64,000 bases of DNA from Trileptium ribeirensis (Eukaryota; Nematoda; Enoplea; Enoplida; Thoracostomopsidae). The notes beneath the pieces are model-generated. The model worked only from the letters and a program-made list of their open reading frames with translations, made no database searches and had not been told where the DNA came from. Each line of letters opens with the position of its first letter. The first letter of the stretch is position 1. The stretch covers positions 62,001 through 126,000 of the forward strand of contig JASANE010024733.1 of the NCBI GenBank assembly GCA_030248225.1, read 5' to 3'. Below are positions 47,165-64,000 of the stretch, piece after piece. A program made the position numbers and the translations under genes.

Positions 47165-47470
47165 AGCCAACTAAATTTGTTGCGATGTTTGGAATCGGCA
47201 ATCTTCAGGCCATCTGCCGAAGCGGTCGATCACCGTAAGAAGGAATGTAGTTTTAACTACCCGAAGGCGGTAACGGACCGACGATATCAACATTGATGTG
47301 AACAAAAGGTCTGCCCCGCTTGGCCAAATAAATCGATCCACCACTAGGCGTTGAGTTGCTCGAATCTTGGATAAGAGAGTGATTGCAGCGAATCGAAAGC
47401 GAGCCCTCGGAAGTTCTCTGGTAGGAAAGACCGGTGCACACAGGTTAAAACTTCGCAAAGAATCGGATGC
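47165..47470 (-). pseudogene. gypsy integrase remnant, truncated
   Basis: The minus strand reads RGRPFVHINVDIVGPLPPSG in one frame (first catalytic Asp context) and TFLLTVIDRFGRWPEDCRF in another. Sequence similarity ends at about 47165. The second Asp, the Glu and the C-terminal part are missing. Confidence 0.8.
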
Positions 47471-47639
47471 TCGGATACCGGAGTTCCGACGCTCTAAAGT
47501 GTCAACGTAGTATCTTTCTGTTTAGGAACGGAATCCTCGCTGGTTTAAGCTTCGGCCGGCTTGTGATAATTGATGTCGACAGTTCTACCGTTGATTCTGG
47601 AAAGGGCGTCAGCGGGTTAATTGTTTATGTCACTAACGT

Positions 47640-48080
47640 GCCGAATGTCATCTGTGAATTCCGTGACGAATGCAGATATCGAATTTCACGAGGAAACTGC
47701 TGCTCGGATCGTGTTCGTAGAACGAACGTGAGTGGCTTGTAGTCCGCCAGGATACGGAAGTTTCGGTCTTTAACACAATGGCGAAAATGTTGGATCGTGG
47801 TATAGATAGCCAACAACTCTCGATCAAATGTGCTGCAGCGGCTGTCGGCCGGGGTGAGCTTCTTTGAAAAGAAACCCAGCGGTTCCCACCGGCCATGGTT
47901 GTATTGTTGAAGCACGGCGTTGATCGCGTCGTTCGAGTCGTCAACCAGAACGTTCAGTGCGGTATTCCGCTTCGAATGTACAAGTAGAGTCGCTTGTGCC
48001 AGCGCCTCCTTTACACGAATGGAACGTGGTTGTGGTGTCATGCGTCCACTGAAGAACTTTGCGTCTTTTTTGTGTCGCAA
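47640..48080 (-). pseudogene. gypsy RNase H domain
   Basis: This is the longest clean piece of the element. It runs KEALAQATLLVH, LNVLVDDSNDAINAVLQQ (first Asp region), GFFSKKLTPADSRCSTFDRE (catalytic Glu), LLAIYTTIQHFRH and FRILADYKPLTF (Asp of the TDHK-like motif, with D-Y-K here). It breaks at about 47640 before the last motif. Confidence 0.85.
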
Positions 48081-48090
48081 ATGAGCTGTG

Positions 48091-48720
48091 TCAGCATCGT
48101 TGTGAGTTTGGCGCAGTGGTGAATAAGCCGATGACTGAAGTTGAGCATCTTAAGAAACTGTTGAGGTTTCTTTTTGGAGTCCGGAATTGGGAAATTGTTG
48201 ATGGCCTGCCCCTTTGAATCCAGCGGGTGGATGCCTTCAGCGCCGACGATATCGCCGAAGAATTCGAGGGATGTCGCTCCAAATTAGCATTTGTTGATAT
48301 TGATTGCGATCCCAATCTTGTCGAGGCGTTCGAACAACATGTTGAGGTGTCGTTAATATGTTCGTTAGTGTCAACACTAGCAACTATTACATCATACAGG
48401 TAGGTGTAGGCGAAATCGAGGCGGCGGATGACTCGTTCGATGAAGCGTTGGGAGGTTTGGCCTTCGTTCGCAACCCTAACGACATCCGAACGTATTCGTA
48501 GAGACGAAATGTTGTTGTAATGGCCGTTTTCGGAATGTCTTCCGGTGCGACTGGAATCTGGTAACCAGGATGAATTTGGAGAATATCGCCTTGCCGTCGA
48601 GGTGTGTTTGATATCCTCTATGTGAGGAATAGGACAATGGTCCGGCACAGTTAAATTGTTGGGAGCCCGGTATTCGCAACAAGGTAGCCAATCACGGTTT
48701 TATTTGGGACCATGTAAAGC
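48091..48720 (-). pseudogene. gypsy reverse transcriptase remnant
   Basis: Pieces in different minus frames include PIPHIEDI, AIFSKFILV and QRFIERVIRRLDFAY, followed by YLYDVIVAS at about 48376-48402. The catalytic Y-x-D-D box is YLYD, so the first of the paired Asp is Tyr. LERLDKIGIAIN-type and LEFFGDIVGAEGI segments follow. At least three frame changes. Confidence 0.8.
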
Positions 48721-49009
48721 CGCCACGAGAAATTGCTCTATGATCAATGGATGATGATGCTCGAACTCTCCCGTGACAGCCTTGATTTGTGTGACGGAAG
48801 GCGCCTCGGACGGCTGTGAACGGGAGTGCCTTTCGTGCGATTTGAAGAGAGCCGTGTCGAGCGTTTGTGACGAAAAGCGATGCGTTGGTGATTCGGGGAA
48901 CTGCTCGAGCAGTGCCATGAACTGTGGCTCGATGGTTGGTTGGGGTAAGGACCGATGTTTGCAGGGAACTGCCTTTTGGATTGATACCTATCAATATGCA
49001 ACTCCATCG

Positions 49010-49340
49010 CACAATAGGGACCGGTGGACGTCTCGGGCGATGTTGAAATCGGACAGTAGGTCAGCTCCGATGATCTAGTAGTTGACGTCCGCGACGACGA
49101 AGACCCATCGGATTGACCGCTTGATTCCAAGGTCGAAAATTAAAGATCGTTGTCCGAAGGTTTTGATTGTTGTGTTGTTGGCAGCTTGGAGGGCGGGTGT
49201 GACCTGAGCGTGGCATCGATCCGTGGCGAGGCTTGGAGAACATTGACCTGGACATCGGTGTCGATGAGGAACCGATGGCCCGAGTTGCGTTCCACGACAA
49301 AAAAGAGACGGTTGTTGACGCCAACTGGAACACTCGTCTT
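49010..49340 (-). pseudogene. gypsy protease remnant with altered active site
   Basis: The minus strand reads HRFLIDTDVQVNVLQAS near 49250-49290. The catalytic Asp-Thr-Gly of retroviral-type aspartic proteases appears as Asp-Thr-Asp. After a frameshift it continues LIFDLGIKRSIRWVFVVADV, then a stop, then IGADLLSDFNI, the end of the fold. Inactive. Confidence 0.75.
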
Positions 49341-49499
49341 GGCTAGTGTCCCCCGGCTGTTTCCCGCGATGCTGCATGCACTACGACACTTCGTCGACGC
49401 AGCACCGAACTACTTGTAATACCAGAATGGCCTGTCGCTGTCAGTTTAAGATCGATCAGGATCGGTTGAGCGGGTGCGATTTCGAATTCGCGGAAATCA

Positions 49500-50080
49500 C
49501 TTTAAACAGAACGATTGGATCGACGGCCACCCTGCGTGAATGTAAGAGAGGCCACCATCTTGAACTTCAGTACACAGGACCTCGTCGTTGAGTTAAGAAA
49601 CCGTCGGCCTCGGGCCCGCCACCTCCATGACCTTGCCCGCCAGCGTTGCCACAGCTTCGAGGAAGGGGTATTCCGACGTAGAGGCACCACCTGGAAATTA
49701 GTTGGGAGCCTTTGAAGGAAAAGTTGTCGGAGTAAGGTGTCGTCGAGGGCAGAGTGTTGGGAACCTAAAAGTTGTCGCATATAACGTGATTGCTGGCTGG
49801 GCTTGCTCAGTGTTGAGAAGCTGTTGCATCGTTTTAGTTCCGAGGCAGACAATCGCTTGACCAATTGCTCTTAAGGACGTCGTACGGATTGTCCCCTGGA
49901 GGATTGATCAATAAATCGCGGACTTCGATGGTATTCTCCGGGGCAAGGGAGCCGATTATGGCGCTGAACTTTGTTTGTTGAAAGACGATCCTTCGTGTGG
50001 CGAATTGGGCCTCGACTTGTGCGAGCCAGAGCTCGGGGTGCGCGGGCCAAAACGGTAATTTGATCGCGGAATGTCGTTTA
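49500..50080 (-). pseudogene. gypsy gag remnant
   Basis: Near 49880-50060 the minus strand reads PFWPAHPELWLAQVEAQFAT, SAIIGSLAPEN, EVRDLL and PPGDNPYDVLK, typical gag of invertebrate Ty3/gypsy elements. The next piece (49864-49502) contains KPSQQSRYMRQLLG and LLRQLFLQRLPTN. The region after it, where a nucleic-acid-binding part would be, is frame-shifted. Confidence 0.8.
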
Positions 50081-50664
50081 TCTCGTACTGAATTGCTTGT
50101 CCGTAGTTGAGCACCATCGTGTCGATGGTATGACTGAGCTCCTATCGAGATTGATTGATTTGGATGCCTTTTATTTCCGCGATCGTTGTTGATAGCATTG
50201 TACCACGTAAACTCGATTGAGGGTTTTGATCGTCAAAAGGCTTGTGGTTGTCACACATGAACCGGACGCGCCGTCGAGAATTGAGCGACGTTTGCTAAAC
50301 AACAATGAAAATCTCCCTCATAAGAGCCATTTGAATAGGAACGAAAAACCAAAGAAATCAATGCTAGTTATCTAACTTAACGTTGTAGAACCATCGCAGG
50401 CGAATGCAAACAAACGGCGAAGTAATGAATCATCGGACTAACCACTGTTGGACTGTGAGCTGGAGTGAAGTGATTTATTGCTGTAAATATACAGCATAGT
50501 CATTGGCATGACATAATAGCTAAAAAGTATGATGCAACAGTTTCATCATGATCATCATCATATCGGTCAGTTGGAAAGCGGCGGGCTTCAGGACGATCGG
50601 TACACTACACGATCAATATGAAAGCAGAATTCAGCAAGATCTATTCAAATGGGCTTTGAGAAGG

Positions 50665-50780
50665 TCGGTCGGACCCCCAGTTTTGAGGGGTCCATAGAAC
50701 CGGAACCTCAAAACTGGGGGCCCAAATGCCCCCTAAAACTGGTCAGTCCCAAAACGCCCGTGTCTTCAAACACGGGCTAA
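50665..50780. repeat. Hairpin cluster
   Basis: CCCCCAGTTTTGAGG (about 50672-50686) pairs perfectly with CCTCAAAACTGGGGG (about 50703-50717). A third diverged arm (CCCCCTAAAACTGG) follows, and then a small hairpin CCCGTGT...ACACGGG at about 50758-50777. Confidence 0.8.
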
Positions 50781-51161
50781 CATTACAGTGCAGCGAAATG
50801 TCATACTCTATAAGTAATACGCATTTTTGTATTATATTGTTGGTCTGTAGCTTGCATGTGAGCGAAAAACTACAATTCGAACGAAGCGGAATTTTAAAAC
50901 ACTGGTACCCGGCTTAAAATACATGGGCGTGGTTTTGTGCGCATGTCATGAAAGCAAATGTTCACACGTTTCGATGCCTTCCCGAGGACGTCATATTTAA
51001 TCAAGCATAATTTTGTTGTAGTCAATGTAGTTCTCCGTAGGAATTTCGCATTCTGTTGAGCATTTTTACGTTGGGCAGTTTACTAGAAAAATGCAGTATA
51101 TACATTACTCTTGAAAAAGATCAACAGAAAGGAAATTTTTTGTTTCATTACATTATTTCAG

Positions 51162-51262
51162 TTTTATTTCCGCGTCATACGAACAAGAAAGTGCGAAATA
51201 ACACAATTGACTTGATTCACATGTTTCGTGATTATCTTCATTATCACATTAAATGCTCAAAG
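51162..51262 (+). CDS. ARPC2: ARPC2 exon: [20 protein letters not shown] to HYHIKCSK
   Basis: The acceptor TATTTCAG ends at 51161. TT completes the Val codon, then 33 codons run through [13 protein letters not shown] to donor GTAACT at 51263, phase 0. This is the most conserved C-terminal block of ARPC2. The family continues for about 40 more residues, starting with a tyrosine- and arginine-containing helix. That last exon was not found in the rest of the window, so it probably lies past the Polinton, beyond 64000. Confidence 0.96.
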
Positions 51263-52425
51263 GTAACTTTAATTTGACAAGATGTTGCATTATCGATAAA
51301 ATTATATTCTGTCTAAACAGCAATGTTTGCCATTAACGTTTAATGAGGTTAATCGAAAAAAGTAGCCTAGTCAGCTTTCGACAAAATCCCCAAATCCTTG
51401 AGAAGAAAGTAGGCGATTCAACCGGAAAGGACCAATTATTTGCAGTGCTTAGCTCTAGTTAGTAGTAATAGGGTCTTTTTACAGATTTTTCTGAGACATT
51501 CATTTTTGACCATCAATCCCTTCGAAGTGTGATTTGGCGTCTAGGTTGTTTTTGTGTCCGCTAATGGTGTTTTATCATCTTAGATTCAATGTCCATCTCG
51601 CATGTGTTTACATTCGGATTTAATATTTTTTTAATTTCGTGAAGCTCCTGAAAGTTTGTGTGTTGGGAATGTTTGGCTTTATGTTGGAAGCCGACATATA
51701 AACGTGCAATGTATGCACGTTTATCCATGGGTAGGGCGATAAAATTTAGCCCCAGATGCCCTCCAAAAAAGCTTAATTAAGTGATGGATGAGGCAGCTAA
51801 CTCTCTAAATAGCAGAAATTTGACTTTAAATCGGCGAGTTAGCTGGGGAAATTTGATAAATAAGCAGATCACCGAGAAGACATATCCAAGCTTATTTCAA
51901 GTATTTTAAAAAGGGAAAAGATTTAAAATTTTGAAATTTGACGGGTGACCCAACCACTTTTGTAGAACAGTTGGGGTTTTAACAGTCGATTTAGGATTAA
52001 GTAATGAGCTTAAGTGATCTGAGTGATGATCTCCAGATATATTCTTGACATAACTTTTGGAGGTTACATCAGAATTTAAGCTGAAAACCGCGATGGTCAA
52101 CCTCCGAGGTATTCGGAGATTTCAGAATTTGATGTCGGCGATTTCAATTGAAGCCGACTCTCTCTAAAGGGGACCCAGGGTTTACGATAGCTGTCAAAAT
52201 CAGAATCTTGGGAGATTTTCGATTGGGCGCTCGGGTTTGACCTCAAAAAGTGGGCGTCAAAACAACGTCGCCGATTGGATGGCGACAAAATCGCCATGCG
52301 TCAACCCCGCAGAAAATTTTGAAGCGACGACTGCCGCGTCCGTCTCGACGAGATCAGTTTGAACTTCGGCAGCGCGGAGTTCGGTCGACTCTACTGACCG
52401 GCTCCGACGCTTGAGTTTTTAAGGT
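51263..52425 (+). other. ARPC2 intron, proximal part
   Basis: AT-rich up to about 52270. A palindrome near 51699-51725 (ATAAACGTGCA...TGCACGTTTAT) is the only structure seen. From about 52270 the sequence becomes markedly richer in GC and CpG. Confidence 0.6.
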
Positions 52426-53268
52426 ATGAGCTCATATCTTTTAACTTTCTCGTGTTTTCTGCTTTATTCGTTTGGAATGGGATTCGACAACGAGAGGACC
52501 CGCGTAGATGTCTTTCATCTCGCGGAAGGGGGACTAGCTATTGCTGTCCGGATCGAACGTTGTAAGTCAGGAAGCGCCGCAAGAGCATGGGGGTCTATTT
52601 TCCCCAGACATGAATAATTTCACCGCGTTTTCATCAATAGCTTCGTTTTCCATGTTTAAAATCCCTTCTCAATCGTTAGATTTATTTATTGATATGGAAT
52701 TATTTGCCGAAATGGTCTTCCGTCACCAACACTGTTATGGGACAACGTCGAGGACCAGTTGGACGCGGCTTTGAATCAAATGGATAAGACGCATCAATTC
52801 GCGGATCGCGTCTACGACCACATGGACGAATGCAACGATTTCAACGAGGATCGTTTCTGGAGCGTATTGACGACCATCTTATCGCTCGATATCCAGAAAG
52901 TGCGACAACCCGTCCGAGCAAGATTCAACGATCGACGGCAAGTCTGTGGCAACGCTGACAAGGTAATTCAGAAGCTGAAGCGGCAACATTACGATGAATG
53001 CGACGCTTGCTTCTAGGATCAAACAAGTCAAGCGGCTCATATGGCGTTTGGTAGATGCATGGAAGAGTCCATATTCAACCGATGTGACATTATTGATGCA
53101 TGTACAATGCTAAACATTGAATTTAATGAAAAAGTTTATACTGCTGTTATTGAATTTTTAATAAAACATTTCATCCTTGCCAAAGGAATCATCAGACGGG
53201 TTAGGGGTACCGTTATGCTTTTTTCATTTTTATTGATAAAATACAATTTTAAAATTTCACGATTATGA
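52426..53268 (+). pseudogene. Possible secreted Cys-containing protein, broken or multi-exon
   Basis: Not recognised. ATG 52426 opens with a hydrophobic signal-like N-terminus (MSSYLLTFSCFLLYSFGMG). At 52560 CGTT is followed by GTAAGT, a perfect donor. A candidate acceptor is TCGTTAG at 52682. A later frame reads LLWDNVEDQLDAALNQM, then an acidic helical stretch to a TAG at 53014-53016. The same frame then continues with AAHMAFGRCMEESIFNRCD and further Cys residues. Together this suggests a helical Cys-rich extracellular protein within the ARPC2 intron. One frame change and one stop argue that it is a pseudogene or that exon borders are wrong. It could also be unrelated open frames in a GC-rich patch. 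Confidence 0.3.
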
Positions 53269-53399
53269 ACAGCAAACAATACAGGGTATATAATACATGA
53301 CAATTTATACAATGTATAATCAAATGATTCTCCTTTTTTCGTTTCTTTGACAATATGATCAACCAATTTGATCCTTACCCGTCGTTGTTTTTGCAGATG

Positions 53400-53955
53400 C
53401 ATTAAATTTTCCTCTTGTTTTGAGCGACCGTCAATGTAATCGCCCGTTACTTGACACTGACGACGATACTCATCTACTTTTGCTTCCCAATATGTAATTT
53501 ATGCATGAAGATATATAACGTACATATAGATCCGTTATTGATAGGCTTCGCGAATACTCATTCCAATGTATTGCTGGCGAAGAACTTTATCCAGATCGTA
53601 GGCTACGAGATGTTTCATAAATCTCGTTCCCATATAATGGTTGGTGATAGTATATCCACGATAAATACCAACCTATCGTACCAGTATAAGTCTGTGTTGG
53701 TAAGATATCGATAACTTATTAAATAAATGGCCAAAAACATCAAATAAATAAACCATTTGTGCGCTCCAGTTAAGACCTTTCGGTGGTTTCAATCGAAGGT
53801 TAAAATGTAGATTTGAAGATGTTTTATTAATCCATCGAATATCGTAACCGTTTGAGGTGTTCCACTTTTCACTTGAACCGTTTGTCCAGTCTTCGAAACA
53901 TAGAGCTTTCGTACAATTTTCAGTAGCGGTACACTTTACACTTAATAACAATATA
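53400..53955 (-). CDS. Small unknown ORF(s) at the tail of the Polinton
   Basis: From 53951 the minus strand encodes 92 residues beginning MLLSVKCTATENCTKALCFE. The frame continues upstream into a hydrophobic stretch (YAVLLITIVGETVILLL), so it may be a short membrane or secreted protein rich in Cys and Trp (EDWTNGSSEKWN, RWINKTSSNLHF). It directly follows the capsid-like gene. No family recognised; it could be an element gene or chance. Confidence 0.3.
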
Positions 53956-53974
53956 ACCGTCTCACCAACAATTG

Positions 53975-55267
53975 TTATAAGTAATACAGCATATAATGTA
54001 ATAAAACGTTTTTATCCATGCTTGGCAGAAGTATAACTTTAGACCTTTTAAGACATTTTATTCCAAAACACTTCCCTGTTTGAGTCAATAGTAGTTCAGA
54101 AGTAAACTCTCGCATTGCAAATATTACAATTGCTTGTTTCAATTCCTCTACAAAATCTATCGATAGTCTTAGCTGTCTATCTGGTGGGTTTGAAATACAG
54201 TTACAGTCACTGCTGTGATTTTTACTTAAATCTATACAAAATATTTGATATCCTGCACCATATCTAAACCCAGCTTCAGTCAAACCTAAGTTTTCAGTTC
54301 TACCATTTAAAGCATATAATGCATTATAAAACAGTCTCATGTCATTCCCAGCTTTGCATGGTAGAGAGATATTGCATGGGTACCTGTCATCATTCATAAA
54401 TACTGTAAAGCTATTCATATCAGGTAAAGTTTAGTTTAAACAAATTTGACTTTGCTGCACCTGTATACGCTTCCTGCGTTATTCCCCAAATGTATATCGT
54501 TCGAGGTAACATACTATCAAAAATTGTCCAATCTACGTTTTGTAGACCTTTATTTTTACAGACAGTGTGTTTATTATATATCTTATTGCAGGAAGTATAA
54601 CTCCTCTGATTCTATCTTGAATTTCAAGAGCTTGTTTTGTTAGCCGTGCTTTAGGTATATATAGATTAAAATCATTAATTCGAATTTGAAATTTATTAGC
54701 TGGTTCATACAATAGTATTAGAGATGGTGTGCTACGTGTAAATTTGAATTCTAGCCTTGTTTTTGGTGGTAAGTATTTGGGAGTTTAGTGCATCAATAAT
54801 TAGTGGAAAATACATTTCACATTTTGTGATCCCATTAGTAGTGCATTTCGATAAACGAAACCTACATTATCTTTAAGATCGTCAAACATATATGTTTGAT
54901 CATGTTTATAGAGACATCCCGCTAAATAATGTTTCATTGTTTGTTCTTCACTCATATGCAACATGTATAATATATATGTCATGCAGGGGTATTGTTTTTG
55001 GTTGAAAGTTATTGGTTCCCCATTTATTTTCATCTAAACGGATGAAAACAGCGCATACCCAAACATATTGCATGGTGCAATTTTAAGAGCTACATCTTTA
55101 ATCTCTTTATTATCACCCTTCATTGTTTAAAATTCAATATAAACAAATATTTCAGATAAATCAATTAAACCAAAAGCGCTTTCACCAATTTTAAAGCGAA
55201 ATGAATCGTCAGTATCACTTCCGGGTAACGTTGTTTCACAAGAGACTTCGACCAAATGTGTTGACAT
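53975..55267 (-). pseudogene. Polinton major capsid-like protein, broken
   Basis: A structural protein of the virus-like element, probably the double jelly-roll major capsid protein, though the assignment rests on family recall. ATG 55267 (MSTHLVEVSCETTLPG) opens the frame. In-frame stops lie at 55127-55129 and just before 55033. The piece 55033-54800 has PITFNQKQYPCMTYILYML and MKHYLAGCLYKHD. A frame change near 54790 leads to FKFTRSTPSLILLYEP and FNLYIPKARLTKQALEIQ. The last piece (54418-53975) has MNSFTVFMNDDRYPCN, DMRLFYNAL and AGYQIFCIDLSKN. Order and total length (about 430 residues) suit the family. Immediately upstream (about 55320-55390) lies a Lys/Arg-rich segment. Confidence 0.7.
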
Positions 55268-55434
55268 GATTGATTCTTTAACTGGGTATTTATCACCCCG
55301 CCAGTTAAGTTTTTCGTTATACGTTTGACATTTTTCTTTTTCTTTGCTGGTTTACGATGCTTTTTAAGACTTTTCTTTTTAACAATTGGAAAAACGTTTA
55401 GAAGCTTTCTCGAATTAAAACATAGAGGTAACAT
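55165..55434 (-). CDS. Basic short ORF overlapping the capsid start
   Basis: The frame from 55434 (MLPLCFNSRKLLNVFPIVKK) is very Lys-rich over residues 18-45 (KKKSLKKHRKPAKKKKNVKR), then loses character where it overlaps the capsid-like frame. It could be a DNA-condensing core-type peptide of the element or part of a frame-shifted neighbour. No family recognised. Confidence 0.3.
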   Translation of the reverse strand: MLPLCFNSRKLLNVFPIVKKKSLKKHRKPAKKKKNVKRITKNLTGGVINTQLKNQSCQHIWSKSLVKQRYPEVILTIHFALKLVKALLV

Positions 55435-55645
55435 TTTTGAAACTGATATTTGCTAAAATGTATTCATCCTTTTTAAGAACTAAACCATAATCTTAACATC
55501 ATCTTTGCATTTGGAAAGAAGTCAACACTTTGAAATTCTGAATCAAGCACTTCAAATCGAAATACCTTTAACATACAGATGTTTAATTCTAGGTTCACTG
55601 CGTTTTTCACACTGATGAAATAACGTGTAGTAGTGATTTATATCT

Positions 55646-56092
55646 TCAATTAACTAATCGTTCTTTCACAAAGGAACTCATTATAAACGTGGAGTTATTA
55701 CGCATGATGTCAACACATTTGTTGCCAACGTGTTTACCGTTTTTCAGGTGTATAGCGTTGAATCCGAATAATTGTTGTATTTCCGGAAATATATTAATTT
55801 CTGCCTTACCTAAGATCTGCACACTGACACGATCACAAATGGGGTCAACTGTAAACTCAATGTCTTGACTAAATGTGTGTAGGTAAGATCACAAACTCTT
55901 GATATTATAGTAGCCTTTATCAATAGTAAACCGTTTCCAAGATTTATTTGTGAAATATTCAACAATACCACCGCCAATATTTTTGTACATGGTGGGAAGT
56001 TAAACATCCAGTACTTTAACTTTTGTAGCGCACAATGCTGTCAGAAACTCAACAACCGGTTCGCTCAGATTGCAAACAACCACAACTTCCAT
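55646..56092 (-). pseudogene. Polinton structural protein, probably minor capsid/penton-like
   Basis: One minus frame runs from ATG 56092 through a TAA near 56001, ATG 55990 and an internal TGA at 55889-55891, to TGA 55646. Recognised pieces are KRFTIDKGYYNIKSL, IEFTVDPICDRVSVQI, IFPEIQQLFGFNA and CVDIMRNNSTF. This is the pattern I associate with a conserved Maverick virion-type protein encoded next to the capsid gene (GYY...F..D.....V...L..LFGF...VDI). It lies between the TBP-like gene and the capsid-like gene. Confidence 0.55.
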
Positions 56093-56111
56093 GATTGTTG
56101 ATTACATTTTA

Positions 56112-56629
56112 TTAAAGTCTTTTAAGGATATTATATACAGTATTGCAAGACAAATAGAAATCATTTATACACTTACAACCAGTCATAACTACATTCCCAC
56201 TCCCATAAATCAAACCCACACCCTTCTGAATCCTAAGTTTCATACTATTATGCAGCTCGGTTTCATTCATTACGGTGTATTTGAATCTCAGACTTTCATA
56301 GACGAAAGGTAAATTTAAGTTAAAACCACATTTCAACATTCCAACAACATTTTTAAGTTGTACATCAAATTTTCGAATGCATGAATATCTGAACTCGTTT
56401 AATTTTTCGTAAACTATATATAAAATTAGTTTTGCTTCATCATTTTACCTCACCCCACCACTACTGGCTTTCCATTGGAAAACAGAAAAATCGTTCCGCT
56501 AGGTTTGAATTTCCATATTCCACCATTAAATCGTAAAATATCAAAGTCAAAATTATCAAGTACACAAGATAAATATAACAAATCAACGTTGCATCCAATG
56601 TCCGATGATACTGTTATATTTGTTATCAT
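56112..56629 (-). pseudogene. TATA-box-binding-protein-like protein in the Polinton
   Basis: TBP is the saddle-shaped DNA-binding core of transcription initiation, built of two related halves. From ATG 56629 the minus strand reads ITNITVSSDIGCNVDLLYLS, then RFNGGIWKFKPSGTIFLFSN and GKPVVVG. After a one-base frame change near 56445 it reads NDEAKLILYIVYEKLNEF, FDVQLKNVVGMLKCGFNLNL, ETELHNSMKLRI, GVGLIYGSGNVVMTGCK and NTVYNILKRL, ending at TAA 56112. Both halves show the TBP hallmarks: a Gly-Cys-x-x-Asp-Leu-like first strand in half 1, and I/L-F/Y-x-S/N-G-x-x-V-x-T/V-G in each half. The total of about 172 residues equals a TBP core. Its ATG overlaps the NADAR stop as ATGA. It would be expected to direct transcription of the element's own promoters. 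Only the single frameshift breaks it. Confidence 0.8.
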
Positions 56630-57159
56630 CTGTTTTCGTCCCAAATTTCCTTCCATAACCCACCCAACTTGTTTAGTCCATTCCACTCGCTCATGTGTCG
56701 ACTTTTTGCATCGTGTAACACGCTTTTTCCGATTCCTCAGTAGAAGTCCCATTCCGACGCTTCCGCTGTTATCGCATTTTCGGTTCCCATTACTGCAGCT
56801 CGTACGTGAGGTAACTGATGAAATTTCGCCTTCATCCCCACTTTCATAACGTTTGCAGCGCGATCGTCTGCTATCCATTCCGCAATATCGAAATTTGCGA
56901 CCTGTTGTCCAAGTCGCTTGTGTATATATGGTTTATCAGAGTTCATAATATGATGATATGTGATTTCATCGTTGAAGTAACGACCCTTTTCGCTTTGATA
57001 CCATTGTTCAACGCAGTTGTAGGTTACTCCATTAATAGTTATTTTAGCAATAGTAAAATTACTAAATAAACTCCATCCAGATCAGAATAAACAAGTGGTT
57101 TCCCATCAGTGCTAACGCAATACTATGTATGATCCATTTTCGGTAATGATGATATTCAT
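56626..57159 (-). pseudogene. NADAR-domain protein in the Polinton
   Basis: NADAR (YbiA/DUF1768-type) proteins are N-glycosidases acting on phosphoribosyl or ADP-ribosyl compounds; some remove ADP-ribose from modified guanine. From ATG 57159 (MNIIITENGSYIV), with frame changes near 57115 and 57080, the minus strand reads WSLFSNFTIAKITINGVTYN, CVEQWYQSEKGRYF (conserved Glu at 57007-57009), KPYIHKRLGQQV, IAEWIADDRAANVMKVGMKA, KFHQLPHVRAAVMGT and ITAEASEWDFY. Then TGA at 56737-56739 takes the place of the Trp expected in the W-G motif, and reading continues GIGKS...MSEWNGLNKLGGLW to TGA 56626. Motif order and size match the family. It lies between a small Maverick gene and the TBP-like gene. Confidence 0.8.
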
Positions 57160-57233
57160 GTTTGTGAACCTTTATATATTAGTAAATACCCCACAATAAA
57201 TAATATATAAATAAATAAATATGATTGGTTGGT

Positions 57234-57652
57234 TTACCCCCACAAAGTTCTCCGTTTAGTTTTCTGCTCAGCTGCTTTACCTTTTCTATCTCTTCCAAAA
57301 GCTGACAAACGAACTCCTCTAAGAAGTGATGCAAATTTATCGGAATCTAAAGGCCTTGGAGGTGAAAAGTTGACATCTCAGACAAAATACTTTATTAAAT
57401 CAAATATGTTGGAACCCACAGTCTTATCCGGATAAATTACGTTGTTATTATCATTTAGTTTTAAATCTTTAATATTGTTTAACATTAATTTAGCTTTAGA
57501 TTGTAAATTTTTAGGAAACGTCAGTGATAAATCTGGTTTTCTCTAGTTTCATAAACAGAAACTTCATTTCTTATTGGTTCTTTATCTTGTAATCCTCCAC
57601 TATTAATTATATCCAACCAACTAACCGTTACCACTGCCATCTTACGTGCCAT
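57234..57652 (-). pseudogene. Small conserved Maverick protein (second of two)
   Basis: ATG 57652 overlaps the end of the preceding gene by 11 bases. It reads MARKMAVVTVSWLDIINSGG; a frame change near 57540 leads to LTFPKNLQSKAKLMLNNI, VGSNIFDLIKYFV and a basic C-terminus (GRDRKGKAAEQKTKRRTLWG), with TAA at 57234. The pattern PKN-x-x-x-K-A-x-x-x-L...GS-x-I-x-D-L is one I associate with a Polinton core protein of unknown function. Confidence 0.55.
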
Positions 57653-57917
57653 AATGTTTATTAAAATAATTAATTAAATGCTTGACCACAATAGGTTTAA
57701 GTAAATTTTTCTTTTTAGAACTAGAAATACGTTTGCTTGCAATACTTTTAAGAACTTTCCTCTTGGTTTTGGTATTTTTGATGATATTATATGCAATTTC
57801 TGCAAATGTGTTAAGTAAAGACTGAGGTGCAACTTTAATTACAGCAGATATAACTTTAGCTGATGATCTCTCCAGAAACTGTAGTGCCGCTAGATTACGT
57901 TCAACCGTTCGAGACAT
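57642..57917 (-). CDS. Small conserved Maverick protein (first of two)
   Basis: An intact 91-residue frame from MSRTVERNLAALQFLERSSA to TAA 57642. The middle reads LLNTFAEIAYNIIKNT and the end is basic (KRKVLKSIASKRISSSKKKN). The helical, Lys-rich pattern with a conserved L-x-E-x-x-x-N-I-x-x-x segment is typical of a small ORF between ATPase and capsid genes in Mavericks. Function unknown. The in-frame ATG at 57974 is further upstream; 57917 is preferred because family similarity starts there. Confidence 0.55.
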   Translation of the reverse strand: MSRTVERNLAALQFLERSSAKVISAVIKVAPQSLLNTFAEIAYNIIKNTKTKRKVLKSIASKRISSSKKKNLLKPIVVKHLINYFNKHYGT

Positions 57918-57945
57918 GTTTAATAAATCTAAAATTAAACTTTTT

Positions 57946-58710
57946 TTAAGAATAAACAAACATCTGACTGTCATCAGGAAAAATACATTGTCTCATCCTG
58001 AGCACACTTTCTGTAGCTGGTTTCAGATCAAGAAATAGATAACCATATGGTTTCTTTGTTGCTTGCTCAAATGCGCTTGAGAGAAAGTCTGGTTTTGAAC
58101 GCCACATTTGCCTTCCCAGGGCATGTATCATGGACTGATCTCTAAAGTTGTGGAAGAGAACCATATACATGTATTTGCCTTCATGATACAAATTCTGTGT
58201 AACAAAAATTGTGCTTAACTTATCATGACGCATACGAGAAAATGCTGCTGCAAGCTTTTTATCTATTGATCTATTTATCTATTATCATATTTGAGGCCTC
58301 AATCATTAAATCAACCAATACACATAAAACGTGTCCTGTGCCTGCGGGAAATTCAGAGGGTATACCTTCATGTAATTCAAAGTTGTGTATTTCATTCAAC
58401 ATTTTAGCATATATATCTTGAAAAATACTGTAACAGTATAAAATTTTCTCCACCTTTTCATCAAACTACATGTGTTTAAGCAATTTGTGAATCCAAAATG
58501 TTTTTTCACTTCCAGTTTGACCACTTACAACACATGTGAACGGTAATTCCAAAGGTAAAAGTACTTTATCACAGCTTTCAAATGATGACATAGTTTGAGC
58601 TGTACAAATTTTCTTATGTCTTTGTAAATGTTGACGAGAAGTATAAGATCGTTCACACTGCTACATACATGCTTCATGATTAGCTTTCAACAAAGGTTAA
58701 GTCTTTTTAA
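57946..58710 (-). pseudogene. Polinton packaging ATPase with N-terminal zinc finger, broken
   Basis: A FtsK/HerA-type genome-packaging ATPase. Near 58640-58710 the minus strand reads CERSYTSRQHLQRHKKIC, a C2HC/C2H2-type finger, with TAG where a residue of its first Cys loop should be. The same frame continues MSSFESCDKVLLPLELPF to VVSGQTGSEKTFWIHKLL at about 58475-58535. In this Walker A the last Gly before Lys-Thr is Glu. Walker B is HVLCVLVDLMIEA (about 58300-58340). After stops near 58271 and a frame change, 58233-57946 reads LSTIFVTQNLYHEGKYM, HNFRDQSMIHALGRQMW and KPYGYLFLDLKP. All family parts are present but inactivated. Confidence 0.85.
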
Positions 58711-58751
58711 GAGTTTTATACGTTTACAATTACGTGTATCCTTTATATCCC

Positions 58752-58835
58752 TATATCCCTAAGGGTACAGCTTGTACCCCGTATGGGTACGGTCTGTACC
58801 CTTATGGGTACGGATTGTACCCTACAGCGGTTGTA
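58752..58835. repeat. Palindromic GGGTACRG...TGTACCC repeats between integrase and ATPase
   Basis: Three consecutive units of GGGTAC-GGTCT-GTACCC type begin at 58763, 58785 and 58806, about 21-22 bp apart. Each is a small inverted repeat. They fill the gap between the integrase end (58855) and the ATPase start (about 58710), where they could act as a terminator or regulatory element. Confidence 0.85.
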
Positions 58836-58854
58836 AATCCTTTTCATGTACCCA

Positions 58855-59891
58855 TTAATTCATTGATTTAGGGTATCCAAACCACTTTACAAGGTACTCT
58901 ACACGCCTTTTGGTCTTGCGTTTGCGTACAATTTTCTCAATTTTATATGAATCAACCACTACTTTAACGTTTTGCAACTCTTGCTTATAAAATCTTCCCA
59001 ATATAGTTTCATTATTTGCGACTTCCAGCTCATAAACTGGAGGATTGAATACTAGTTGTTTACTTATTGTAAACACTTCACGTGACCACAGCTGATTAAA
59101 TACACGTTCAAATGAAATTGTTCAATTGAAACACGTACAATATCGCCTAGTTGAAATTTATATCGAACATCCACATTTTGCGCTGGAAATAACTTTTCGC
59201 GAATTTCATCCTCATTATCAACTTTTGAAGGTGTAAAACCATAACTGTTTTCTGTATTGTTATAACTTTCTACAAGTGATTGAAGATTATCTATATATAT
59301 ACGGGTATAGTTTGCTGTTAAATATTTATAAATTTTTGATTTCAAAGTACGTATAAAACGTTCGGCAATACTTGCTTTTATTTCCTTATTCTTAGCAGTA
59401 TAAACGTTTATACCATTTTCCTTGCAATAATCATATAACAGGTTATTTACAGACTTTTTACCATTATCTGTTTGAAAATTTTGAGGTTTAACTTGCTCAA
59501 AGACAGATTTTAATGCATTTAGAATAGTCTAAGCTGTCTTGTTCTTAACAGGTATAACCTAAGAATATTTGGAAAAGCAGTCAATAACAACAAGTAAATA
59601 TTTTTTATTATCATTATATGATGACAAGTTACTCATATTAGCTAAATCGGCCTGAAATAAACCATTTAAACCTTTAACAACAGTACGTCTACGCTGAAAT
59701 CTTAATCTTCTAGGTTTATGTAAAGTATATGTTTCCTGACCACGTAACCAATCTTGTACTTCTTTAAACTTTACATTATAACCTCGTTGTTTAGCTTCTC
59801 TATAGAGTTTAGGCGCACTTGAAAAACCTGCAATGCTTGTAGGGTTGTAGCATATATCTTTAAGTTTAGAATCCATTCTTAACCTTAACAA
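58855..59891 (-). pseudogene. Polinton integrase (rve core plus chromodomain), broken
   Basis: A DDE integrase that inserts the element into host DNA. From about 59870 it reads YNPTSIAGFSSAPKLYREA, VQDWLRGQETYTLHKPRR (the N-terminal zinc/HTH region), GLFQADLANMSNL with the first Asp, and DCFSKYS. In-frame TAG codons lie at 59559-59561 and 59529-59531. The same frame continues FQTDNGKKSVNN (second Asp) and KEIKASIAERFIRTLKSKIY (Glu), to about 59100. A frame change then gives VFTISKQLVFNPPVYELE and the chromodomain KIVRKRKTKRRVEYLVKWFG ending YP at about 58860. The catalytic triad is intact; the nonsense codons and frameshift inactivate it. Confidence 0.9.
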
Positions 59892-59925
59892 TAAAACACG
59901 TTTGTTTTTAAGACTTTATTAAACA

Positions 59926-62830
59926 TCAATATCAATATGCATAAGCAAATCATCATCGTCATCATCACAATTATTACTATTAGACAGATCAAGTAACAAT
60001 TCAACAAAATCTTTATCGCTAACACCATACACTTTATAATGTCCATAAGCATAAGAACTGATTCCATCGTTCAATATATATCTCTTATCGTTATATATAG
60101 ATAAGGTCTTCTTATTAAGTGTCACAGTATTCAACACACGTTTGGCACTGCGTATCATATTCATTTTATGTTTCATGTTACTACCACTGAAAAAATGTTG
60201 TAATAGTCTCGGTGTGACGAATATCTTTCTTCACAACACCCTTCTTTACACCCTTTACACGCTTCTTCTCAACTCCACTACACTTTATACTATACATCTT
60301 CGACCGCAGTCCAACAAATTCCTCGATGGGTTTACGAGCAGGCTCGTCTTTCATTTTACCAAGCACCTTTTTGTTCGTAGTTGAGAAGAGGGTCTGGTTT
60401 GAGGGGTAGCCGGAGATATCGAAGAAGGTTGCGTTTTCACGCATATCTTCGTAAATGTCTTTGGTTTCTACAGAATAACACAATGAGTCAGTATCCATAA
60501 ATAGTAGTTTACATTTATCATCATACGTTGCTTTCATATTATTGTAATGGAAATTGTACATGAGGGATTTTGATAGTTCTAAAACTGTAAACCCGACATA
60601 AATGGGTTTACACAGATTGACAGTTTTGCGATGCATTTTAACCGCAATCAAATCTTCGTTGAATATTGAGGACATGGAGTATCGGGGGTTCGCCACTAGC
60701 TTTTCAAATTTATTGTCATTAGTTATAAGTTTAATGTCAACATAAGCTCGCACATTCTCCATGGTCGTGCCGAATACAGCGTTATTGAGGAGTTTACACC
60801 AGTGTTTCTCAAAGTCGCTATTTGCGTTTTTACGCATTTCAGTATTAAAGTTGATATAGGGTTCCATCCATTGATACTGGTGGAAGGAAACGACACGATG
60901 CACTTTTTTTAAGTTCCATCCTAAGTGCAAGGTACTGCTGAAAGTTCCCGATATGCACAATATATCGCTGTGTATCGTTTAAGTTGGGAACCAGTTTTTC
61001 AACTGGTGCGGAACGATCTTGTTTGATCGAACTGCAATATGCAGTCAACATTGTATCGCTTATTTTTAAACGTTCTGGAATCAATGGGTAATCATTGTGA
61101 AGGTCAGAAGGTGATATGGATAATTTAAGTCCACTTTCAATATGTATCCAACATCACCATTTGGGTTGATTGAAGACCAATCGATTAAACCGATTTGCGA
61201 TATGGAAAGCCACTTGAAATTGTCGCAGGGGAGTATCTGTACTATCGACCAACCACATAAATTGTTGGCATCGAGGTACATGATATATCTGATTGTTCCC
61301 GTCGGGTGGTAACCATCAACGTATGGGTTGTTTGCTTTCGCATATCGCTGGAGATTACGGAGACGCCACCTCGAATTCCATCTTCGAAGAATGCGTACAT
61401 GTTGAGGCCGGAGATGAGATCCAGCTTGACGCCTGTCTTGGTAAGACAAGCATCCCATGCGAAGCTTGGAAGGGTAATGTAGTGAGCGGGGTCTAGCCGG
61501 AATTTACCTAGACAAAATAATCTGAAATTTTCGAAGACATCGCGGAAATGCAAAATATCAGTTTTGAGATAAAGATCATGGTATTGTCCGAGATTTTCAA
61601 TGTTCATTTCTCGCCAAACAGTTTGAGCTTGTTGGTAATCTTCGTCACCAATACCACATTCCGTGAGACTAGAATAAAAGTCTCGTTGAGGGGGTAACGC
61701 TGTTTCGTTGAAGCGGTCAGCGGAGTCCATATATTCATAAGGGTATATACCCTTGGGAAGCATTAAATTCAATTTATCACCAAATACATGCTTCATAGCT
61801 TGAAATTGATTAACTCTAGTTTTTTAAGATTGTCGACTAGCGTTTGGAGAGATGATGGAAGAAATTGGATGGTATCGATAAAACGAATTTTCCATCTAAC
61901 TTCTTCTTCAGCGACATCATCGTTTCCCAATATGAAATCGATATCGTCAACGTTTTCGTTCCAGCACTCACCATCATCATCCAGATCATCTCCCGCTTCA
62001 TCCATTATAAACGGATTACTAGCCTTCTTTGATTTCCGTTTGATGGAAAATGTCATATAATCCTCCATGCCTTTCGCAATACATTCAATCTCCAACCCCT
62101 TTTTCTCACATATTACACCAAGTTCTTGCATGATTAGATGACGGTCGTATCTTCGAAAATTGTGGAACAGTACAGTCACATCCCGATTAAGCCGATAGCT
62201 AATATTTCATTGTATGTGAGCTGCACCTCTGTAGCGACCACAAAGGTGACAATGATCGCGCGCTTTATCATCAGCATCCACAGGTTTATTACATATATAA
62301 CATTTTGATGTGTCATCAAAATCACATTGTTCAGTATCAGACAAGTTGAGGGGTTTATGAGGTATATTTTATATTGTTCAGACAGTTGGATTACATTATT
62401 AAGGAAATGTTTAACACTATTGTCTCCTCGATATATTATTGGTGCGCCGATTAGAATTTTGTCGTTACAACAGCCGAAACAACCAACAAGTCCATATCCA
62501 CATGAAGTATGACGTTGATATGGGTTGACGTAAGAAGTGGATGTTGACGGTTCACAGGTGTGAACCTTTTCGAGAATACATTCGAAATCCGCATATATCA
62601 CGTAAGGGCATCGTTGCATACGGTGAATGTTTTCAAATTGAAGTGTCGAATTGGATGGAGGTGTTTGGATTCGGGATGATTGATCATGTCGACAGCATTG
62701 TAAATGTTCGTCTCGCTTAGCTGTGGTATAACATGGGATCAAACATTTTGGACAAAAATATTTCATTACTTTGTAACGACGTTGATCATATAATGAGTCG
62801 TTTCCATTAGTATATGCAGCATGACTTAGC
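59926..62830 (-). pseudogene. Polinton protein-primed DNA polymerase B, broken
   Basis: A family B polymerase that copies the element. From about 62830 it reads YDQRRYKVMKYFCPKCLIPC, then ENIHRMQRCPYVIYADFE at about 62585-62620 (exonuclease motif I). A frameshift near 62370 leads to a zinc-binding CYICNKPVDADDKARDHCHLCGR-type stretch, with a TGA near 62207 in place of a Cys codon. VLFHNFRRYDRHLIM (motif II) follows at about 62175. The next pieces, 61796-61242 and 61458-61081, hold YPYEYMDSADRF, LGQYHDLYLKTDILHF and YLDANNLCGW (motif A, about 61249-61278). Then 61084-60845 and 60960-60181 carry KLLNNAVFGTTMENVR (motif B), KPIYVGFTVLELSKSLMY and FMDTDSL (motif C, about 60478-60500). The C-terminus is at 60176-59926 (YNDKRYILNDGISSYAYGHY). 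At least five frame breaks. The N-terminus beyond 62830 is missing. Confidence 0.93.
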
Positions 62831-64000
62831 TATCTGCAAGGCGTAGACCGCCACGCTATCGAAAATATCCGCGAAGAAGCCAATCTAACTAATCCAGAAA
62901 TCCTAGCAGTCTAGCGAAACTGCTGGTTTTGCAACATGTCACAAAAAATATTGAAAAATGTAAACACGGCGACACAGACTCTTCCAGAATTTAGCTATAA
63001 TTGCTAAAAAAATTGCCGTTGCTATATGCACTATGGGTCCAGGCGCCTTTACTCGAGATTCACGAATATTAATTTTTTCTTTGAAATATGTAACGGTTTA
63101 GGATTAAGCAACCCTAGAAAGTGTTTGCAGTTGCTCCGCCAACATAACAATGCTTCAGTTTGTTTTAGCTTGATTATTCTAAATCCTTGACGAGTGTAAT
63201 TACCATTCGAACTATACCTTTTTATTCTATAGCGTTACGTTTCCAGAGGTAAATTTGGACGCATTTTACAAAAGATACAAGTCTATTTAAGTGGCTTGGC
63301 ATAGGCAGCTATACATACTTCATAGTTGTCGAAAGTCTGGTTACGACGCTAAGGGTTGGTAAGGGTTGGACCCCCTCAAGCGATATTAACCCTCCCCCTT
63401 TCGCACGAAAAATTATAGCAATAAATTGGGAAAATCTGCAATAATCGGGGTTAATTTGAAAAAAACTGGGCCAAAAGGTGGGGCCGTGGACGGTCTATCC
63501 TCTAAGACTTCATTGCCGACCGTCAATCCCCCTGCCTAAGCCAACGGACCTTCGACATATATGCTCATAGGGAGAATATCCCTCTGAGGCTCATATCCCA
63601 TAAGCAGAACATATCTCATGCTGAGAGGTAGCCAAAGCTTCTAAACCCCACTAAAGCGCTGCATCCACGCTTCCCCGCCCAGAGCCTGCAGAAACAGGCT
63701 ATTGTTGAAGTTTTATGGGATAATTGATAAAATTAAAAAATTTGAGCCTCAAAAATACCCCTACCTGACAACCACCCTGAGACTTCGGACCTTATGTATG
63801 TATATCTATACAGGCGACTCCTTTTGTAGCTGCTCAACAGAAGAACAACATTAACATGACAAAAAATTTATTGAATTTATACAGGAAACACAGAAACAAA
63901 CATATTCATGATTAGTGTACAAAACTATACTCGGCTCAAGTTCTAAAACCAGACCAGCCCTGAAAAGCCATATTCTCAATTTTACCCTGCGTTAAATTAT
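62831..64000. other. Sequence beyond the Polinton, nothing certain
   Basis: AT-rich non-coding sequence. Small hairpins occur near 63565-63610 (AGGGAGAATATCCCT). A short stretch near 63350-63520 has GGGTTGG and GGGGCCGTGGACGG blocks reminiscent of the inverted-repeat elements, but no matching ends were found. No ARPC2 exon, RNA gene or Polinton terminal repeat recognised. Confidence 0.4.

Follow-up and report, generated by a model that had tools for sequence, protein, structure and literature searches.

The locus raises the question whether a mobile DNA element, a Polinton/Maverick, carries its own TATA-binding protein (TBP), and whether such a protein could serve the promoters of the element itself. 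The earlier note had read both halves of a TBP core from the minus strand at 56112-56629 of the window, i.e., the whole stretch of 64,000 nucleotides analysed here. Profile searches bore this out. The N-terminal half (59 aa from the ATG at 56629; E 1.8e-6, 28.1 bits) and the C-terminal half (110 aa; E 9.4e-12, 45.1 bits) were scored separately against Pfam TBP PF00352, and each lies above its curated cut-off of 22.9 bits. For both halves the top PDB matches were TBPs (phmmer; best E 6.9e-8 for the N-half and 2.5e-8 for the C-half); a single-sequence protein search with the C-half gave no match. The halves lie in different frames and a stop codon ends the first piece, and the window copy hence is a pseudogene.

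The fold was modelled for two proteins, namely P0101, a metagenome relative, and the window C-half. P0101 yielded the two-repeat saddle that had been predicted, and its TBP matches aligned over 169-180 residues. The window C-half formed a half-saddle (pLDDT 90.9), and its first 44 Foldseek rows were TBP-bearing entries. The element protein shares with the TBP family (PF00352; human 1cdw, Arabidopsis 1qn7) the two repeats, the saddle, both stirrup motifs and a YEPEL-like TFIIB loop. It differs from the family in its low identity (22-27% in the P0101 fold matches), in changed intercalating residues and in being encoded by a mobile element whose TATA is non-canonical.

Had the gene been placed correctly? 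It was said to lie between structural genes with a start overlapping its neighbor. The overlap stands, as the TBP ATG and the stop of the preceding gene share an ATGA; this upstream neighbor, however, is not structural but encodes a NADAR protein, whereas the downstream neighbor is a presumed minor capsid gene (Table 1). The window NADAR start was set by comparison with L005. The names of the minor (mCP) and major capsid protein (MCP) genes are presumed from gene position, and the putative identity of DNA polymerase B (PolB) from position and from the motifs DANNLYGW and DTDSL, found in L043. The L043 PolB frame had no Pfam match at E 0.1 and no PDB sequence match. There was no convincing long pair of terminal inverted repeats in window 50000-64000, and an Rfam scan of the whole window at gathering thresholds gave no match. 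Outside the element, frames at 47171-49864 resemble a putative Ty3/gypsy-type polyprotein remnant.

Table 1. Genes and TATA-like motifs of the Polinton remnant in the window, in order of decreasing position
Feature	Position	Strand	Evidence or remark
Putative protein-primed DNA polymerase B remnant	60184..62829	-	Sequence motifs
Octamer CTTAAAAA	59905..59912	-	36 nt before integrase ATG (59876)
Retroviral-type integrase with chromodomain, remnant	58858..59915	-	L045 relative matches rve and Chromo
Octamer CTTAAAAA	58704..58711	-	Before ATPase remnant, start not fixed
Packaging ATPase remnant	57949..58660	-	L045 relative matches Pox_A32, E 1.9e-6
Octamer CTTAAAAA	57943..57950	-	33 nt before g1 ATG (57917)
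Octamer CTTAAAAG	57745..57752	-	100 nt before g2 ATG (57652)
Canonical TATA box TATATAAAG	57170..57178	-	41 nt before NADAR ATG
NADAR gene (broken), upstream partner of TBP	56740..57137; last piece 56629-56736	-	PF08719 E 1.6e-20 for 56740-57081
TBP N-terminal half (broken gene)	56453..56629	-	PF00352 and PDB TBPs; ATG overlaps NADAR stop
TBP C-terminal half, other frame	56115..56444	-	PF00352, PDB TBPs, model and Foldseek
Octamer CTTAAAAG	56119..56126	-	34 nt before mCP ATG (56092); inside TBP 3' end
mCP, presumed minor capsid remnant, after TBP	55649..56101	-	Name by position
Octamer CTTAAAAA	55470..55477	-	43 nt before g3 ATG (55434)
Octamer CTTAAAAA	55361..55368	-	Before MCP remnant, MCP start not fixed in window; homologous sites in relatives
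MCP, presumed major capsid remnant	53978..55351	-	Name by position; L045 relative without Pfam match

That the TBP belongs to the element, as had been proposed, is seen from its relatives in the 687-Mb assembly (20,229 contigs). With the window C-half as query, 565 first-look candidates were found, and all of the 150 scored were matches (worst E 3.0e-31); many of these had stop-to-stop frames of 267-272 or 333-339 aa, and others were short or held stops. We sampled 20 stretches of up to 7 kb each, chosen around TBP hits. TBP is present in all 20, as expected from the choice. A NADAR gene adjoins it in 19; 18 stretches show an MCP-like gene and 12 an integrase, the latter being cut off or lost elsewhere. 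The gene order is integrase, ATPase, g1, g2, NADAR, TBP, mCP, MCP. It is kept in the divergent L057, L058 and L060, whose matched genes have 31-59% identity to the references (TBP, NADAR and MCP 31-40%); mCP of these three and g1 of L058 were assigned by position only. Pfam recognized NADAR, TBP, an integrase with chromodomain and an A32-like ATPase in the relatives. The open TBP copies L045 and L058 each contain two PF00352 stretches, and both loci match rve, Chromo and, above cut-off in their ATPases, Pox_A32; the L045 NADAR matches PF08719 above cut-off (E 2.2e-36). A similarity of the MCP to Capsid_N was seen in L057 only (15.1 bits, under the cut-off of 24). The elements resemble known Polintons/Mavericks in their integrase with chromodomain, A32-like ATPase, and PolB-like and capsid-like genes, and differ from them by the addition of NADAR and TBP. 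Between ATPase and NADAR, g1 and g2 are small conserved genes (L042 1981-2647, L045 2198-2909 and homologs) with no Pfam match above cut-off in the relatives examined.

Searching from the capsid side gave the same neighborhood. Among 97 MCP places scored of 1649 first-look candidates, 75 have a same-strand TBP hit 782-1128 nt upstream among the TBP matches listed, five lie too near a contig start to judge and 17 are without TBP among the matches listed. Of four of these 17 that were read, two do have TBP (a complete match in one, a partial match in the other), and in the remaining two no TBP stands where it would be expected. Hence TBP is usual, perhaps not universal. The latter two places (G000:C15457 and C13086; L067 and L066), with an MCP and no recognizable TBP at the expected distance, possibly represent TBP-less elements.

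Polinton TBPs are often open and evolve under constraint. The median dN/dS was 0.27 (quartiles 0.17 and 0.43) for the 152 of 820 pairs with dS 0.05-1.5, where pairs are not independent and some copies are decaying. These pairs come from 41 loci whose frames span 165 aa or more; L032-L039 were excluded, being mostly repeats of later stretches.

Where do these proteins come from? A PF00352 search of the genome returned 975 candidates, of which 150 were scored. Contig C9496 bears a canonical TBP split by introns, presumably the host gene; one of its exons is the best of these scored rows (110.3 bits), and a second exon reached 61.6 bits among the matches listed (other rows, 53.5-63.0 bits). This host-type TBP stands beside nematode TBPs (SH-aLRT 96 in the quick tree, 84/74 in the careful tree), and it is this placement that suggests a nematode host. 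The Polinton TBP is a two-repeat TBP homolog apart from it. In the careful tree, a grouping of Polinton TBPs with nematode TBPs was rejected (p-AU 0.0026). A single Polinton TBP clade was not rejected (p-AU 0.23), and the free tree splits the two Polinton lineages (branch 90/78); the groups in these tests were defined once a first quick tree had been made.

Hundreds of candidate copies in one genome could also arise if a TBP-related family of the host had recently been captured, or amplified by chance, inside transposons. We consider this exceedingly unlikely in view of the rejected nematode grouping, the uninterrupted frames, the same place of the gene in elements at 31-40% identity (TBP, NADAR, MCP) and close relatives in metagenomes. 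Also, no host gene was nested in the Polinton TBP clade among the matches listed. The protein database held three such close relatives, all from ENA: P0001 (98 aa; 54% identity over 52% of the query), P0101 (192 aa, 56%, on a 10.5-kb contig) and P0102 (180 aa, 52%); from their sequences, P0101 and P0102 were assigned to lineage 2. When viral contigs were scanned with the TBP half, alignment A1, P0101, MCP and PolB, no relative was confirmed, and spread beyond this genome therefore rests on these three metagenome proteins. P0106, likewise from a metagenome, is a divergent TBP-family protein on a long branch with an ITNMTV start like that of Polinton TBPs.

If the element makes its own TBP, does it also have its own TATA box? 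Most element genes have, about 37 nt upstream of their ATG, a TATA-like motif that goes with the TBP lineage. In nine lineage-1 stretches, the coding strand carries 56 copies of the octamer CTTAAAA[A/G] and the other strand two. At 25-45 nt before the ATG it precedes 37 of 41 starts (taken by homology) of seven genes in nine lineage-1 elements including that of the window, compared with 25 of 1388 other same-strand ATGs and 1 of 933 opposite-strand ATGs; in 300 shuffles a mean of 0.28 starts had the octamer (maximum 3); range and genes were picked after the pattern had been seen, and these rates describe rather than test it. Four starts lack it in this range: those of the L044 integrase, of the L053 ATPase (no octamer; a canonical-type TATA 35 nt upstream), of the L041 MCP (octamer 71 nt upstream) and of L041 g4. 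In addition, seven of nine representatives have an octamer 100 nt before the g2 ATG. Four later-fetched stretches (L061-L064) serve as a check of the pattern. The lineage-1 stretches L061, L062 and L064 (the last assigned by its other genes) hold 4, 6 and 5 octamers, respectively, with one CATAAAAAG in L062 as well, and L063 of lineage 2 holds two CATGAAAAG and no octamer.

Lineage 2 has the motif CAT[A/G]AAAAG. In three loci, two of them near-copies, CATGAAAAG lies 15-65 nt before 17 of 26 starts, and none of the three contains CTTAAAAR. L057 has mostly CATAAAAAG, with 6 on one strand and 0 on the other. In effect, a single split, that between the two lineages, underlies the match of TBP and motif.

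Not all genes follow the pattern. The octamer was absent before NADAR in all of seven lineage-1 representatives, and before TBP it was absent in eight of nine and present once. Near-copies vary: in L052 an octamer lies 80 nt upstream of NADAR, and the L042 family bears one before TBP. L043, with TBP and no octamer, carries only usually octamer-less genes and the PolB end. Canonical TATATAAAG stands before NADAR in 7 of 14 loci and is missing in the other 7; it is also present in L061 and the window. Lineage-2 NADAR bears the lineage-2 motif. Furthermore, repeated GGGGTACA-type words occur on the coding strand of L043 and the lineage-1 stretches (GGGTACA 91 vs 9, nine loci).

In such tightly packed genes the octamer often overlaps the end of the previous gene, and it might act in RNA, either as translation start context or in end processing of the upstream gene, rather than as a promoter. 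This appears very unlikely to us, given that the distance is fixed to the downstream ATG (sd 3.8 nt) and not to the upstream stop (214 nt; 22 rows, one of them stretched by a broken MCP frame), and that the L045 octamer before the ATPase lies 270 nt past the integrase stop.

Alternatively, the motif could be a core promoter for host TBP or another host factor, with a minor or unrelated role of the element TBP. It does resemble a TATA variant, only two TBP lineages are available for comparison, and a canonical-type TATA does precede some element genes, such as NADAR in many loci and the L053 ATPase. Octamers, however, are sparse outside the element, which speaks against a general host signal. 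The window element holds 11 on the coding strand and 0 on the other in 10 kb, at least three of them inside genes (61828, 60913, 56357), besides one CATGAAAAG, while the remaining 52.9 kb of the window contain 4 and 5 per strand. We thus regard a promoter read by host factors as improbable.

The protein itself was compared at key residues in 14 rows, 12 from this genome plus P0101 and P0102, with the roles in intercalation and TFIIB contact taken from TBP. In the N-half the first Phe is kept in all 14, and the second place is Phe in 10 and Trp in 4 (lineage 2). The C-half of lineage 1 has lost its first Phe (His 7, Tyr 1, Asn 1, Gln 1), and the Pro after it is replaced by Asn in 10 of 10; lineage 2 keeps the Phe (4 of 4). 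At the second aromatic place of the C-half, 11 rows have Phe, two have Tyr and one has Thr; L048 lacks this aromatic as well. Loss of C-half intercalating residues could weaken DNA bending in lineage 1. On the TFIIB side, the glutamate taken as second contact is kept in 14 of 14 and the first contact in 12 of 14. In TBP-DNA complexes, the TATA box is covered in its 5' part by the C-terminal half. The altered 5' TATA part in lineage 1 would parallel its altered C-half stirrup, which is suggestive only.

Largely kept TFIIB contacts next to altered intercalating residues might also be expected if the protein mainly acts against the host, competing for TFIIB, TAFs or promoters and dampening host or antiviral transcription, with the motif read by another factor. 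The adjoining NADAR, a possible counter-defense gene, would fit. Yet the motif is TATA-like, sits roughly as far upstream as a TATA box and differs between the TBP lineages, and we hence judge a mainly anti-host role unlikely.

We instead consider it likely that the Polinton-encoded TBP is a core gene whose product recognizes a TATA variant private to the element and brings in host RNA polymerase II. The earlier suggestion that such a TBP would let the element control its own promoters gains support from the lineage-specific motif before most genes, and TBP and motif together suggest a private gene-expression switch. In this mechanism, the element TBP would bind and bend CTTAAAAR (lineage 1) or CATRAAAAG (lineage 2), and its C-terminal stirrup would contact host TFIIB. 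Host RNA polymerase II would thereby be brought to the integrase, ATPase and virion genes of the element. TATA boxes lie about 25-30 nt before the transcription start site, so that leaders would be very short with the motif 37 nt upstream of the ATG.

Going further, we lean slightly toward a self-contained switch in which a divergent TBP co-evolved with its private TATA variant, and in many elements host TBP starts the NADAR-TBP pair from a canonical TATA, after which the element TBP fires the integration and virion genes. In roughly half of the lineage-1 loci host TBP could start NADAR and TBP first, because NADAR has canonical TATATAAAG instead of the octamer; once made, the element TBP would switch on the remaining genes. 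Where a gene of this pair bears the element's own motif, namely TBP in the L042 family and NADAR in lineage 2, the system could sustain itself. A uniform early-late scheme was weakened by comparison of upstream motifs across loci.

By analogy, the nearest working parallel is KSHV ORF24 and its kin, with EBV BcRF1 and CMV UL87 as further herpesvirus TBP mimics. As proposed for the Polintons, a viral TBP-type protein goes with a modified TATA, there before late genes, and with host Pol II. In contrast to these mimics, the Polinton protein is a TBP sequence homolog by profile and its carrier is a Polinton; further pre-initiation-complex genes were not seen in the Polinton stretches read. TBP mimics of beta- and gammaherpesviruses (KSHV ORF24) and TATT late promoters are treated in excerpts of PMC12529657, PMC7498053 and PMC6541308.

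Giant viruses and mirusviruses carry viral TBP homologs as well. Rows taken as putative giant-virus TBPs (P0063, P0082 and kin) form a long branch separate from the Polinton proteins. Giant viruses often have their own RNA polymerase; no RNA polymerase gene of this kind was seen in the Polinton stretches read. Available text of PMC4602308 and PMC10132985 covers such viral homologs, the former including a phycodnavirus TBP, and that of PMC10675990 places TATA-binding proteins in mirusvirus-like elements. We found no Polinton TBP or NADAR among the open-licence papers searched, and an earlier mention elsewhere is possible; weevil Mavericks are treated in excerpts of PMC13419823, and the accessible part of PMC11071308 mentions neither TATA nor NADAR.

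A core-gene TBP with a matching non-canonical TATA would show how an element times its own expression. Many diverged TBP-promoter pairs in one genome would make the evolution of TBP specificity directly testable and, if the proposal is true, provide a natural series of TBP-DNA specificity swaps.

NADAR is a near-constant neighbor of TBP in these Polintons (window 56629-57137, relatives L041-L064). Excerpts of the literature describe NADAR enzymes as reversing guanine ADP-ribosylation; their presence in phages, several giant-virus clades and some RNA viruses is described in the available part of PMC9503650, which leaves Polintons/Mavericks unmentioned. Polinton NADAR may remove ADP-ribose from nucleic acid, and its constant place beside TBP suggests a part for ADP-ribose chemistry in the conflict of the element with its host.
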